IMG/VR virus record: IMGVR_UViG_3300047379_000427
Coordinates: 1-23,598 of that record
Direction: 5' to 3' (one strand)
From: a virus
Length of the DNA stretch: 23,598 nucleotides
Part shown: in pieces, positions 4,440-10,508 of the stretch
How the letters are laid out: every line of letters starts with the position of its first letter
Numbering within the stretch: position 1 is the first letter of the stretch
Notes under the pieces: generated by a model
Seen by the model: the letters and a program-made list of their open reading frames with translations, nothing else
Databases searched by the model: none
What the model was told of the DNA's origin: nothing
Position numbers and translations under genes: made by a program

Positions 4440-4581
4440 AAGAGTAGTAGAACTAGTAAACGAATATCGAATTAAAAGAAGAAGAAAAATGTGGTCAGGA
4501 ATTTGGTCTGCATTTCTTGGTCTTTCATTGATATGTATTTGTCTATACATATTCTTTTTTGCTTGGCCGACAGTTGTATAG
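4432..4581 (+). CDS. 49-aa small membrane protein
   Basis: A 49-codon gene starting within the end of iscU. The N-terminus is basic (NEYRIKRRRKMW) and residues about 22-46 (GIWSAFLGLSLICICLYIFFF) form a single transmembrane helix with the N-terminus predicted inside. It overlaps the start of the cyclase gene by 23 nt in another frame. It could be an independent membrane microprotein, or, if ribosomes shift by +1 in the T-run at 4555-4560, an extra N-terminal helix of the cyclase. No family recognised. Confidence 0.6.
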   Translation: MDKRVVELVNEYRIKRRRKMWSGIWSAFLGLSLICICLYIFFFAWPTVV

Positions 4582-6412
4582 TTGGAAAACAGTCCTAATC
4601 ACCATAGGTGTATTTGTAGGACTTAAGATTTGGTCTCCCTATCTCGTAGATAATATCACTTGGTCTTACTTTGATGTTCTTCATCAGAGTCAGGAGAAAG
4701 TTCAGGTTGATGACATCGTCTTAGTAGACATAGACGAAAAATCACTTGAAGTGTTCGGACAGTATCCGATAAAACGTAGTATCTATAGGGATTTACTCCT
4801 TAACACTCATTACACTAATACACATGTTTTCACTCAACTCTTTAACCAACCTGATAGACAGTCAGGAGAAGATGAGATTTTTGCAGAAGGATTGATAAAC
4901 AGATTAACAATTTTATCAGCTGCACCAACAACACAAACTCAAAAAGGTTCTGCACCATTCGTAGGTAACTCTACATTCGGTGGAGGTGAAGCAAAAGATT
5001 GGTTGTGGAACTTTTCAGGAATATCAAGTCCTATCAGGATTCTTCAGGACAATACTTATGGAGTTGGAGTTACAGTTGCAACACCTAGTGTTTCGGGTAC
5101 TGCAAACTTTGACGGAACAACAAGGTCAATACCTTTAATCGTTACTGCAAACGACCAAGTATATCCTTCTCTTGCACTAGAGACATTACGTGCATTATCA
5201 GACCAACCTTCATATCAAACTAGAATTACAGAGATAGGTGTTGAATGGTTACGAATGGGTAGGGACAAACCTATTACCACCACTCCAACGAGTGATGTTA
5301 TGGTAACCTATTGGAATGAGTTCCAACGGGTTTCTGCAGTAGACTTACCTAATCTAAATCTTACTAATAAGATTCTTGTATGGGGGTTAACTGCTGAGGG
5401 ATTGAATAATCCAGTTTCAACTCCAGTGGGTGTATTGTATCCTCACGAAGTGCAAGCGAACCATATCCAAACCGTTTTGTCAGGAGTTCAAATACAACAA
5501 TCCTACTATCTTGGATTGCTTGAGATTGTTCTTCTGTTGACAGTTCTTGTATTGATATTGGGGATGGTTTACAAACTTCCCACAATTCTTTCGGGGATAA
5601 TGAGTCTAACACTTGTAGGACTTCAAATCTTCGGGAGTTATTATATTTGGACTTCAGAGCTCGTTCTTTTCGATACCTTCTTTTCATCGATTGCCTCCTT
5701 AATTGTTTTCGGTCATGCCTCTTTCAATCAATACTATACAACCTACCAACTCAAAGAAGAAATTAAGAAGCAGTTCCAAAAGTATTTATCTCCCGACATG
5801 GTTGACCAACTCGCAGAGAATCCCGATTTACTTAAATTAGGTGGAGATAGAAAGGAACTTACATTCATGTTCATGGACATATGTGGATTCACTCCAATCA
5901 GTGAACACTACATGAAACAAGACGACCCCGAGGGATTAGTGGAACTCATTAACAAATTCCTTGACATGCAAACAAAGATAATACTAAATAATAATGGAAC
6001 AATTGACAAGTATATGGGTGATTGTATTATGAGTTTTTGGAATGCACCTTTGGATTGTCCCGACCATGCCGAGATGGCAGTCAAGTCTGCAGAAGAAATA
6101 CTAATTGCAACCAAGGAACTTAATGAAGAACTCAAACCACTCGGCCTCCCTCCTATCAATGTGGGTATTGGTATTAACACTGGGGAGTGTATCGTTGGAA
6201 ACATGGGGTCAGAACTTAGATTTGACTATTCCGTCATTGGAGATGCCGTCAACCTTGGTGCTAGACTCGAAGGACAAACAAGAAATTATGAGGGGGTGGA
6301 CGTGTTGTTGGGCGAAGCAACATATCTCCAGTGTCCAAACAGAACATTCACTAAAGTCGACTCTATTACAGTTAAAGGAAAATCAGAACCAGTCGTGGTT
6401 TACACTATCTGA
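4559..6412 (+). CDS. CHASE2-domain class III nucleotidyl (adenylate) cyclase
   Basis: A 617-residue membrane cyclase. Order: one N-terminal membrane helix (about 9-25), a CHASE2-like extracytoplasmic sensor (about 30-310), three membrane helices (about 318-385), then a cytoplasmic class III cyclase domain (about 420-617). The metal-binding aspartates are present: Asp440 in FMDICGFT and Asp488 in KYMGDCIMSFW. The purine-selecting Lys484 favours ATP; the second selectivity position is Ser558 (YSVIGDAVN), where bacterial adenylate cyclases often have Thr or Asp. The transition-state pair is Asn565 and Arg569. The enzyme looks active and would make cAMP in the host. The start is uncertain: no ATG is available before residue 200; TTG at 4559 or 4574 are the options, both without a clear Shine-Dalgarno. 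A sensor-linked cyclase is very unusual in a phage. Confidence 0.9.
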   Translation: MLGRQLYSWKTVLITIGVFVGLKIWSPYLVDNITWSYFDVLHQSQEKVQVDDIVLVDIDEKSLEVFGQYPIKRSIYRDLLLNTHYTNTHVFTQLFNQPDRQSGEDEIFAEGLINRLTILSAAPTTQTQKGSAPFVGNSTFGGGEAKDWLWNFSGISSPIRILQDNTYGVGVTVATPSVSGTANFDGTTRSIPLIVTANDQVYPSLALETLRALSDQPSYQTRITEIGVEWLRMGRDKPITTTPTSDVMVTYWNEFQRVSAVDLPNLNLTNKILVWGLTAEGLNNPVSTPVGVLYPHEVQANHIQTVLSGVQIQQSYYLGLLEIVLLLTVLVLILGMVYKLPTILSGIMSLTLVGLQIFGSYYIWTSELVLFDTFFSSIASLIVFGHASFNQYYTTYQLKEEIKKQFQKYLSPDMVDQLAENPDLLKLGGDRKELTFMFMDICGFTPISEHYMKQDDPEGLVELINKFLDMQTKIILNNNGTIDKYMGDCIMSFWNAPLDCPDHAEMAVKSAEEILIATKELNEELKPLGLPPINVGIGINTGECIVGNMGSELRFDYSVIGDAVNLGARLEGQTRNYEGVDVLLGEATYLQCPNRTFTKVDSITVKGKSEPVVVYTI

Positions 6413-7357: not shown

Positions 7358-7386
7358 TTACAGATACACCTGTTATGTTGTATAAT
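7358..7386 (+). promoter_or_regulatory. Possible sigma70-type promoter of the peroxiredoxin gene
   Basis: Perfect TATAAT (7381-7386), 17 nt after a weak -35 (TTACAG). The -10 lies in the loop of the hairpin annotated at 7362-7400, so promoter and terminator overlap. AAAACCC stands just upstream, as at two other promoters in the window. Confidence 0.45.
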
Positions 7387-7400
7387 GGGTGTATCTTTTT
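7362..7400 (+). terminator. Hairpin plus T-run after hsp20
   Basis: A perfect 9-bp inverted repeat (AGATACACC at 7362-7370, GGTGTATCT at 7388-7396) with a 17-nt loop, followed by TTTTT. It fits a rho-independent terminator for hsp20, although the loop is long. A -10 box sits in the loop, so it may also act as an operator. Confidence 0.6.
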
Positions 7401-7417
7401 ATATTATGGAGAAAAAA

Positions 7418-7939
7418 ATGGAAGAAGTACATATGGGTCTGCCTTTAGTTGAAGGACAAGAAGTACCTAACGTAGACTTAACAATAAGAGTTGATGGTGA
7501 TTTCGTTCAACTAAACACAAAAGAACAATTTGCAAATAAAAGAGTAATACTATTTGCATTGCCTGGCGCATTCACACCAACATGTTCAACACAACAATTG
7601 CCTGGCTTTGAAGAAAAGTTTGCAGAGTTCCAAGAAAAAGGAATCGATGAGATATATTGTTTATCCGTAAACGATACATTCGTAATGAACTCGTGGTTTG
7701 AATCACAAAACATTACTAATATTTTTCCACTTCCCGATGGGAATGGAGAGTTCACTCATATGATTGGTGCAGAATGTAAAAAATCTAATTTAGGATTTGG
7801 ATACAGGTCTTGGAGATATGCATTAGTAATTAATGATGGCAAAGTAGAAAAAATATTCATAGAAGAAGGTTTTGGTGATAATGTCGAATCCGACCCTTAT
7901 GAAGTTTCCTCACCCGAGAATGTGCTAAATACATTGTAA
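7418..7939 (+). CDS. Prx5-type peroxiredoxin
   Basis: A 173-residue redoxin of the Prx5 / PrxII subfamily, which reduces hydrogen peroxide and organic peroxides. The peroxidatic cysteine is Cys56 in PGAFTPTCS; the catalytic Thr and Pro are in the same motif, and the conserved Arg is in GYRSWRYALVI. Other family signs are VNDTFVMNSW and the GEFTHMIG stretch. I start at ATG 7418 because GGAG lies 6 nt upstream; ATG 7406 would place that sequence inside the gene. The stop overlaps the methyltransferase start (TAATG). Electron donors would come from the host. Together with iscU and hsp20 it forms a stress-linked set. Confidence 0.92.
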   Translation: MEEVHMGLPLVEGQEVPNVDLTIRVDGDFVQLNTKEQFANKRVILFALPGAFTPTCSTQQLPGFEEKFAEFQEKGIDEIYCLSVNDTFVMNSWFESQNITNIFPLPDGNGEFTHMIGAECKKSNLGFGYRSWRYALVINDGKVEKIFIEEGFGDNVESDPYEVSSPENVLNTL

Positions 7940-9180
7940 TGAACGATTATTTCAGATATACTCTTAAAGACTTAGAAGAAAACTCTGCACAAAAGAAGTT
8001 TAACTATATAACTTTTTTTGCTGGTGGTGGAGGTTCTTCTTGTGCTTACAAACTCGAAGGTGGAGACTGTAGATATATGAATGAGTTTCAACAACTACAT
8101 GTTGATACCTACCTTCAAAACTTTCCCAATACAATTCATGAATGCAAAGACATTAAAGAAGTTACGGGTAAGGGTATTATGGAACTTAGTGGACTTAAAG
8201 TTGGAGAGATAGATATCTTAGATGCAAGTCCTCCATGTCCACCATTCTCTATGGCAGGTTCTAAACGTGAAGGTTGGAACAAGGAAAAAATTGCATACGG
8301 AATGAAACAAACTAACATTGAAGATTTGACTTGGGAAGTAATTAGAATTACTGGAGAACTTAAACCCAAAGTTGTCATATGTGAAAATGTAAAAGGTCTT
8401 ACAATGGATTATGCAAAAGACCATCTAATCAGAATGATTCAAGACTTTGAAGCAGAAGGTTATTCTGCAGTCTATAAAGTTATGAAAGGACAAGAACATG
8501 GAGTCCCACAAAAAAGGGAAAGAACTTTCATACTTGCAGTTCGTAATGATGTGTTAGATAAAATAGGAATGCCATGGATGGTATTAGGAAGTGTTTTTCC
8601 CGAACCATCTGATAAAGAATGGACTGTAAGAGATGCAATCGAAGACCTACAAGATGATGAAGAGAATATAGTAGATGCAACTTACTTAGAAGAAGCAATG
8701 AGAACATCTTCTAAAGCACATTGGGTATTTGGATTTGATACTCATCCCGACTTTCCAAACTCTGGCCCATGTTTAGGAATGAGAGGAATCAATGACAGAA
8801 ATAGAGTTATAAGTATTGGGGATGATATAGTTGGCCCATGGTTCAAAACACAAATCAAAAATGGAATCATAGACCCCGAAGATGAGAAACACTCATACTA
8901 CATGTCAAGAATAGTTCCGTGGGAACAAGCAGCCCATTCGTTGACTGAACAAGGTTGTCAACCAAAATTTATGGGTGGTAATCATTTCCATCCAAGTGGA
9001 GAAAGAATATATACTCCAAAAGAACTACAAAGAATTATGACGTTACCCGATGATTATAAATCAACTGGAGACTATAATGATAAAGGTGCAAGGATAGGAT
9101 TAATGGTTGCACCCTTATGCTTAAGGACACTTGTAGAAAGTGTTAATACAAATATATTGGAGAAGTACAATGTCAATTAG
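7939..9180 (+). CDS. C5-cytosine DNA methyltransferase
   Basis: A 413-residue enzyme that transfers a methyl group from S-adenosylmethionine to carbon 5 of cytosine. Motif I is FFAGGGGSS (26-34), motif IV is SPPCPPFS with catalytic Cys100, motif VI is CENV (149-151), motif VIII is QKRERTF (191-197), and the C-terminal motif IX/X region includes IYTPKELQRIMTLPDDY and GLMVAPLCLRTL. The target-recognition region lies about 225-345. There is no restriction endonuclease beside it. The 11-nt overlap with a TET/JBP-like dioxygenase suggests that its product, 5-methylcytosine, is the substrate of that enzyme. The recognition sequence cannot be read from the protein. Confidence 0.93.
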   Translation: MNDYFRYTLKDLEENSAQKKFNYITFFAGGGGSSCAYKLEGGDCRYMNEFQQLHVDTYLQNFPNTIHECKDIKEVTGKGIMELSGLKVGEIDILDASPPCPPFSMAGSKREGWNKEKIAYGMKQTNIEDLTWEVIRITGELKPKVVICENVKGLTMDYAKDHLIRMIQDFEAEGYSAVYKVMKGQEHGVPQKRERTFILAVRNDVLDKIGMPWMVLGSVFPEPSDKEWTVRDAIEDLQDDEENIVDATYLEEAMRTSSKAHWVFGFDTHPDFPNSGPCLGMRGINDRNRVISIGDDIVGPWFKTQIKNGIIDPEDEKHSYYMSRIVPWEQAAHSLTEQGCQPKFMGGNHFHPSGERIYTPKELQRIMTLPDDYKSTGDYNDKGARIGLMVAPLCLRTLVESVNTNILEKYNVN

Positions 9181-10183
9181 AACACACACCCCAAAGGTTG
9201 ACCATGGTTTTGCATGGACTAAAGAAAAATACAATGGACAGTGGTTAGATGGAAGTGAGATTACTGATTTGGTTTCTACTGTAGGAACAACAGATGAGTT
9301 AACTAAAATCTATAAACCAGTATCAACTCTCGGAGAAGAACCACCATTACTAGCATGTATTGTTAAAGGTGTTTACAAAGGTAAACAGTTAGAAGAACTT
9401 AGAGAAACAGTTCAATCTATAGAAGAAGTATCTACACTTCGTGCAAATGCAGCTGGCCCTATAGACCATGAAGAAATGAAAAGGAAAGGTTTGATTGAAG
9501 GTGTTCATTATAAAATGAGAACTGCAAACTCATATTATCCAATAAAGAAAAATGGTCAGTTTAATCGTATTGCAGAAGCAAATCCTATCCATTCTATTTT
9601 TATGGGTCATAAGAGAGGAAGATTTACAGGAATGATTGGACTAAGTGGTTGGTCTAAACTTGCAAGAAACAAAGAGAAATGGGAGAAGATGCAAGACATA
9701 GCATTACTAAATGAGGTTGCACTAAAGAAAGGTGCGCCAGAGGTATGGCAAAAACAAAGAGAGTTTTGTGATGAATGTGTTGAATCACAATACACATTAA
9801 AAGGAGCTCCCTTTACTTCTATATCTGCAAACAAATATTCTTATGTAGAAGGTGCAGGAAAAATGTCTGCACATGTCGATGGTGATGATTTAGATTTTGG
9901 TATGACAACCATGTGTGTATTCCGTTGTGGAGATTACAAAGGTGCATACTTATCATTCCCGAGATATGGAATAGGAATTGATGCTGACGATGGTGATGTA
10001 ATTATTGCAGACTCAAATGAAATACATGGAGTTACCCAAATAGAAGGAACAGGTGTTAGACATACTTGTGTTGCATATTGTGGAAGTGATGTTGCAACAA
10101 AAGGTGTAAGAGGTAAAACAGAGAATCCTATCGGGCATCATCATAGAGACAAACACGGTAATCTAGATACATTCTTCAGTTAA
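9170..10183 (+). CDS. TET/JBP-like 2-oxoglutarate Fe(II) dioxygenase
   Basis: A 337-residue protein starting at ATG 9170, with GGAG 7 nt upstream. It shows the iron and 2-oxoglutarate signature of the TET/JBP family: His235-x-Asp237 (SAHVDGDD), distal His286 (SNEIHGVTQ) and Arg297 (GVRHTC). The spacing Asp-49-His-11-Arg is close to that of Naegleria Tet1. The conserved strands between are MCVFRCGDYKGAYLSFPRYG and DDGDVIIAD. The N-terminal 150 residues have no assignment. Phage TET-like enzymes next to a C5-methyltransferase oxidise 5-methylcytosine to 5-hydroxymethylcytosine, which may then be decorated. No glycosyltransferase is in the window, so the final product here is open. The C-terminus is His-rich (GHHHRDKHG). 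Confidence 0.83.
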   Translation: MSIRTHTPKVDHGFAWTKEKYNGQWLDGSEITDLVSTVGTTDELTKIYKPVSTLGEEPPLLACIVKGVYKGKQLEELRETVQSIEEVSTLRANAAGPIDHEEMKRKGLIEGVHYKMRTANSYYPIKKNGQFNRIAEANPIHSIFMGHKRGRFTGMIGLSGWSKLARNKEKWEKMQDIALLNEVALKKGAPEVWQKQREFCDECVESQYTLKGAPFTSISANKYSYVEGAGKMSAHVDGDDLDFGMTTMCVFRCGDYKGAYLSFPRYGIGIDADDGDVIIADSNEIHGVTQIEGTGVRHTCVAYCGSDVATKGVRGKTENPIGHHHRDKHGNLDTFFS

Positions 10184-10184
10184 A

Positions 10185-10508
10185 ATGACTGAACTATTTA
10201 ACAGTAAAGTTTACAGAGTTGTAGAAAATCCTCATCAAGATGATGCAGGGATAGAACTAACTGGAGGTGAATGGGACGGTTTAGTTTATCAATATGGTAA
10301 GGTTCATATGGAGGACGGTAAACCACACTTAAACTTTGAAAGAACCATAAGAAGATTACCAAACGGAGTTGAAAACTCAGAAGAAGCACTTACAGATTTA
10401 CTAAATAATAAGGAATTAAATACACTCATGGGTGATATTCTAGTCGAAGTCATGCAGGAACAAATAAGGAAAGAGAATGAACAAAGAGATATTGAAAGAA
10501 CAGATTAA
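10185..10508 (+). CDS. Conserved phage protein, function unknown
   Basis: A 107-residue acidic protein starting 2 nt after the dioxygenase stop. The centre (YQYGKVHMEDGKPHLNFE) and the end (MGDILVEVMQEQI) resemble a short protein often seen in T4-like cyanophages, with no known role. No membrane helix or catalytic motif. It overlaps the lysozyme gene by 32 nt. Confidence 0.7.
   Translation: MTELFNSKVYRVVENPHQDDAGIELTGGEWDGLVYQYGKVHMEDGKPHLNFERTIRRLPNGVENSEEALTDLLNNKELNTLMGDILVEVMQEQIRKENEQRDIERTD

Follow-up and report, generated by a model that had tools for sequence, protein, structure and literature searches.

Phage TET dioxygenases that are encoded together with C5-methyltransferases reportedly oxidise 5-methylcytosine (5mC) in the DNA itself, and some of their gene clusters, as described by Burke et al. 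in 2021 (PNAS), are said to include glycosyltransferases as well. T4 arrives at 5-hydroxymethylcytosine (5hmC) through a dCMP hydroxymethylase acting on the nucleotide pool, followed by glucosyltransferases. In the CmoA-CmoX-CmoY system of Synechococcus phage S-B43, the product is 5-carboxymethylcytosine, and CmoX (structure 8YF3) is a DNA cytosine C5-carboxymethyltransferase that uses the cofactor Cx-SAM and modifies GC motifs (PMC12783734). The gene pair described here is most likely a known kind of viral DNA modification, namely a post-replicative 5hmC system, and what is new about it, as far as the literature searched shows, is the lineage in which it is found, a leucine that contrasts with the Arg of CmoX, and downstream genes that can be exchanged. 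Like the phage TETs of Burke et al., the pair consists of a Tet_JBP dioxygenase adjoining a C5-cytosine methyltransferase, but it belongs to T4-like marine phages, the stretch analysed is devoid of glycosyltransferases, and many relatives have a P-loop kinase instead. With the CmoA-CmoX-CmoY system it has in common a related SPPC-containing C5-transferase, the occurrence in T4-like marine phages and the cytosine of DNA as predicted target, whereas Leu388 replaces Arg350, there is no CmoA, and the second enzyme is a TET dioxygenase where that system has an amide ligase (PMC12783734). Like in the case of T4, 5hmC is predicted in the phage DNA, and a T4-type alpha-glucosyltransferase is even present in one relative (L022), but the modification is predicted to take place on the DNA rather than at the level of nucleotides. 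Naegleria Tet1 and mammalian TET2 share the catalytic motif and the predicted fold with the dioxygenase, at an identity of about 12% over the structural alignment.

The whole stretch analysed, a virus record of 23,598 bases referred to as the window, comes from a marine T4-like phage similar to pelagimyophages, of which it covers a part; profile searches found in it a family B DNA polymerase, UvsX, a DnaB-like helicase, Hsp20 and a peroxiredoxin. The window also codes for weakly curlin-repeat-like proteins and a CHASE2/guanylate cyclase, and as Pelagibacter phage HTVC008M has a similar gene content, with curli genes and an annotated adenylate/guanylyl cyclase, the host probably lies in or near SAR11. 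The cyclase gene (4559-6412) is an example of a phage protein that combines CHASE2 with a guanylate/adenylate cyclase. All genes at the locus itself are on the plus strand. The peroxiredoxin gene (7385..7939; PF08534, 7.6e-29) shares one base of its stop codon with the ATG of the methyltransferase gene (7939..9180), which is followed by the dioxygenase gene (9170..10183) and then directly by the gene of a conserved phage protein of 107 amino acids, termed c2 (10185..10508; PHROG 3998, 2.6e-07). An earlier note, made from the DNA letters, had read the two central genes as a C5-methyltransferase overlapping a TET/JBP-like dioxygenase, and this holds, with matches to PF00145 and PF12851, respectively.

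The first enzyme of the pair is a CmoX-related C5-cytosine DNA methyltransferase of 413 amino acids that covers profile positions 1-321 of 324 in PF00145 (1.8e-48) and also matches the DNA methyltransferases of PHROG 116 (1.2e-62). The PC motif, ENV, QxRxR and motif X are all there, and SPPC (S97-P98-P99-C100), ENV and QKRER are invariant in 23 homologues. Cys100 in the SPPC motif (codon 8236..8238) aligns with the catalytic Cys98 of CmoX (8YF3). The part encoded by 8668..8976 does not align to CmoX and lies between the matched blocks 6-244 and 346-409 (8YF3), a position that suggests a putative role in target recognition. Close to the C-terminus, Leu388 (codon 9100..9102) corresponds by alignment to Asn304 of HhaI and to Arg350 of CmoX, the cofactor-selecting site, and it is invariant in the 23 homologues, which are TET-paired. 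The enzyme presumably transfers a methyl group to the C5 of cytosine.

The second enzyme is a TET/JBP-family Fe(II)/2-oxoglutarate dioxygenase of 337 amino acids with a predicted double-stranded beta-helix fold of the TET type, and its match to PF12851 (Tet_JBP; 1.3e-11) scores 44.5 bits, above the curated cut-off of 34.9. It likely starts at the ATG at 9170 and not at the listed GTG at 9140 further upstream, because a GGAG that is likely its ribosome-binding site lies just upstream of this ATG (9159..9162) and relatives also use an ATG there. With this start, the gene begins inside the methyltransferase gene, as the earlier note had proposed, and the two overlap by 11 nt (9170..9180); overlaps of comparable kind recur between both genes in relatives. 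The predicted iron ligands His235-x-Asp237 (9872..9880) and His286 (10025..10027) and the predicted 2-oxoglutarate contact Arg297 (10058..10060) are exactly as that note had named them when counted from the ATG at 9170, and all are invariant in 24 homologues. Searches of PDB sequences with the single sequence or a profile gave no meaningful match, but a structure model built from 22 homologues (pLDDT 78.8, pTM 0.81) did place the enzyme: the 26 best PDB fold matches are all TET2, CcTet, NgTet1 or CMD1 (4.7e-12 to 1.9e-8), and FTO follows as the next group from 2.0e-6. The assignment to the TET/JBP group rather than to another dioxygenase group is thus borne out by the predicted structure. For the N-terminal 150 residues, a role as a distinct domain that reads methylated sites is not supported, as this part is conserved together with the core, with many invariant positions before residue 155 in 24 homologues, and residues 1-87 are modelled mostly with high confidence (residues 88-121 poorly). 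The N-terminal part looks like an integral portion of the enzyme and may possibly contact DNA. The dioxygenase would oxidise methylcytosine with DNA as the substrate.

Dozens of contigs from marine T4-like phages have kept the pair, which is also present in the cultured Methylophilales phage Melnitz, with 46% identity for the dioxygenase and 57% for the methyltransferase (tblastn). The dioxygenase of Melnitz is annotated as 'hypothetical', and the Melnitz paper treats the methylase alone and not the dioxygenase. A set of 84 distinct TET sequences was compiled from Melnitz and IMG/VR loci, with the distant TETs from Cr30 and HTVC112P among them, and in 72 of these the gene immediately before the TET is that of the methyltransferase. 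The remaining ones are mostly accounted for by contig ends that cut the locus, by a methyltransferase that lies farther upstream, at about 0.6 kb (L116, L120), or by their being distant TETs; two TETs without a methyltransferase directly upstream (L052, L267) count against the explanation preferred here. Other phage Tet_JBP proteins with stronger Pfam scores were observed at loci without a C5-methyltransferase (L276:5710-6618, L275:5254-6582, L471:3491-4357); the genomes of two of these also have TAGT-like genes, and the proteins may act on thymine.

Taken as one system, the pair is quite likely to carry out a post-replicative cytosine hydroxymethylation, with 5hmC as the likely product, that would protect the virion DNA. 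The methyltransferase would place a methyl group from ordinary SAM on the C5 of cytosines in the phage DNA, the TET-family dioxygenase would then oxidise the 5mC, most likely to 5hmC, and the oxidised virion DNA would resist host nucleases. For the phage of the window and those closest to it, the modification would probably end with 5hmC, barring a modifier beyond the 23.6-kb fragment, whereas in other relatives the hydroxyl would be further substituted by a kinase or by glycosyltransferases whose genes lie immediately behind the pair. The earlier note had contrasted such a route with the nucleotide-pool route of T4, and in agreement with that, PF00303, to which dCMP hydroxymethylase belongs, had no match in 20 IMG/VR records, the window being partial, nor in the complete Melnitz genome; the sole match was found in Cr30, whose TET goes without a C5-methyltransferase. 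What speaks against this reading is that the selective benefit is not obvious, since restriction-modification systems are rare in SAR11, to which the host presumably belongs (PMC7029224), and this raises the question why phages of SAR11-like hosts would keep methyltransferase/TET pairs.

The relationship to CmoX could suggest another function. CmoX is the nearest solved structure of the methyltransferase (8YF3, 4.2e-65), the SPPC motif is common to both, and CmoX occurs in T4-like cyanophages, so that the enzyme might be a carboxymethyltransferase of this type, with the dioxygenase acting on another base or on 5-carboxymethylcytosine. This is very improbable. In CmoX, the carboxyl group of Cx-SAM is held by Arg350, which replaces Asn304 of HhaI (PMC12783734), and precisely this arginine is a leucine in all TET-paired members examined; in addition, the Cx-SAM synthase CmoA (TIGR00740) was not found in the TET-paired records, the window itself being a fragment, whereas the CmoX phages S-CRM01 and S-B43 both have it. 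With leucine for arginine and no CmoA in the paired records, an identity as CmoX carboxymethyltransferase was discarded despite the shared SPPC. The same division is found throughout 210 loci, a number that includes repeated contigs: leucine stands at the cofactor site in 112, of which 110 have a TET nearby, two are truncated where the contig stops and none has CmoA; arginine stands there in 95, with CmoA nearby in 90 and TET in none; the three loci with methionine have neither, and the two associations are never mixed. The tree of the methyltransferases shows distortion from a short fragment and from a long branch, and of it only the split between the Leu enzymes and the rest was used, which falls on one branch with a support of 100/100; as the split is essentially this one branch, the correlation does not represent many independent events but probably a single evolutionary one. 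The Leu-type enzymes are expected to use SAM. The residue at the cofactor site cannot by itself predict this, because the R350N variant of CmoX took neither SAM nor Cx-SAM (PMC12783734) and leucine is neither Asn nor Arg. The contrast nevertheless offers a testable rule, based on sequence alone, by which family members that methylate could be distinguished from those that carboxymethylate.

If the methyltransferase does produce 5mC, the dioxygenase might still lead to something other than 5hmC, either by over-oxidation to 5-formyl- or 5-carboxylcytosine or by a CMD1-like addition of another group. TET2 oxidises stepwise, and TET2 and CMD1 rank near each other in the fold search, which would be compatible with such products, but the genes behind the pair in relatives (TAGT, AGT, P-loop kinase) act on a hydroxyl, and an end product other than 5hmC is therefore considered unlikely. 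It is less likely still that the dioxygenase is of the JBP kind, with thymine as the base that it hydroxylates, and that the methyltransferase acts independently. For the Tet_JBP proteins of the phages Cr30, HTVC112P and P12024L, a C5-methyltransferase is not nearby or was not detected, as one would expect in that case, but the tight overlap and the conserved pairing with a C5-methyltransferase speak against it at this locus, and so does the downstream T4-type alpha-glucosyltransferase of L022, as enzymes of this class act on 5hmC in DNA.

The preferred reading, a cytosine hydroxymethylation system, leads to the genes behind the pair. Directly 3' of the TET gene is a variable slot, the right-hand edge of which is c2, and c2 follows at once in 13 of the 84 distinct sequences, the window included. 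What most often stands there instead is a P-loop kinase of about 178 amino acids with a weak likeness to PF18751 below the cut-off, and Melnitz, too, has a kinase gene besides the pair. Often this kinase is preceded by a protein of 331-424 amino acids without family assignment, termed c15, which thus lies between TET and kinase (L017:9039-10034 and relatives); c15 has no match in Pfam or PHROG, its structure model reached a pLDDT of 49.4, and a faint ParB-like stretch has an hhalign probability of 25%. Other slots contain the TET-associated glycosyltransferase TAGT (PF20691) or else a protein without family match that appears GT-B-like by eye, and in L022, TAGT is followed by the T4-type DNA alpha-glucosyltransferase (PF11440, 5.7e-74). 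The slot content can differ even between close relatives, as the TET of L008 is 88% identical to that of the window, yet L008 has the kinase. In the window and its nearest long relatives (58 and 106 kb), neither TAGT, AGT, the kinase nor PF00535 (GT2) was found, which makes plain 5hmC the likeliest product in these nearest kin. The 'hypermodification' of the earlier note is thus not evident in the window and its closest long relatives, but candidate genes for it do come behind the pair in other relatives, TAGT and AGT among them.

It is possible, though at somewhat less than even chances, that the C5-transferase family has split into enzymes with Arg and CmoA that install a carboxyl handle and enzymes with Leu and TET that install a hydroxyl handle, and that the downstream cassette is swapped, with a kinase phosphorylating 5hmC as the commonest version. 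In the literature searched, no report on a phosphorylation of 5hmC in DNA was found for cytosine, and the downstream kinase hints at a so far unexplored chemistry on this base. The exchange is not limited to the genes behind the pair: among sister contigs with the flanking cyclase, Hsp20 and c2 (L396-L463), the place that corresponds to 7939-10184 of the window is taken in some by an N6/N4 amino-methyltransferase (PF01555) and in others by a cassette of a DruA-like protein, a cytidylyltransferase, a GT-B-like protein and TAGT or a kinase. The slot between Hsp20/peroxiredoxin and c2 appears to be a hotspot at which different DNA-modification genes replace one another. A DruA-like protein (PF14236, 4.8e-07) was observed in a phage cassette together with glycosyltransferase genes (L397:3709-4824, also L413, L415, L420, L421 and L432), which suggests a DruA relative with a role in base modification.

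As for the target, GpC is plausible for the pair, since it would fit the GC motifs of CmoX as well as the GpC preference of phage TETs. AGCT, GGCC and TGCA are avoided in five T4-like phages without a C5-methyltransferase, and this avoidance is lacking in twelve pair-bearing phages, Melnitz being the weakest case. As a proof of GpC specificity the missing avoidance of these palindromes was rejected, because it is confounded by sister contigs without the pair that also lack it, be it with the amino-methyltransferase (AGCT 1.42) or with an empty slot (AGCT 1.36); only those sister contigs whose slot holds the DruA-like cassette have kept the avoidance (AGCT 0.51, GGCC 0.31). Apart from that, most of the phages in the set formed by the window and its relatives strongly avoid GATC and CCGG, often to near 0 of the expectation, but not AGCT and GGCC.
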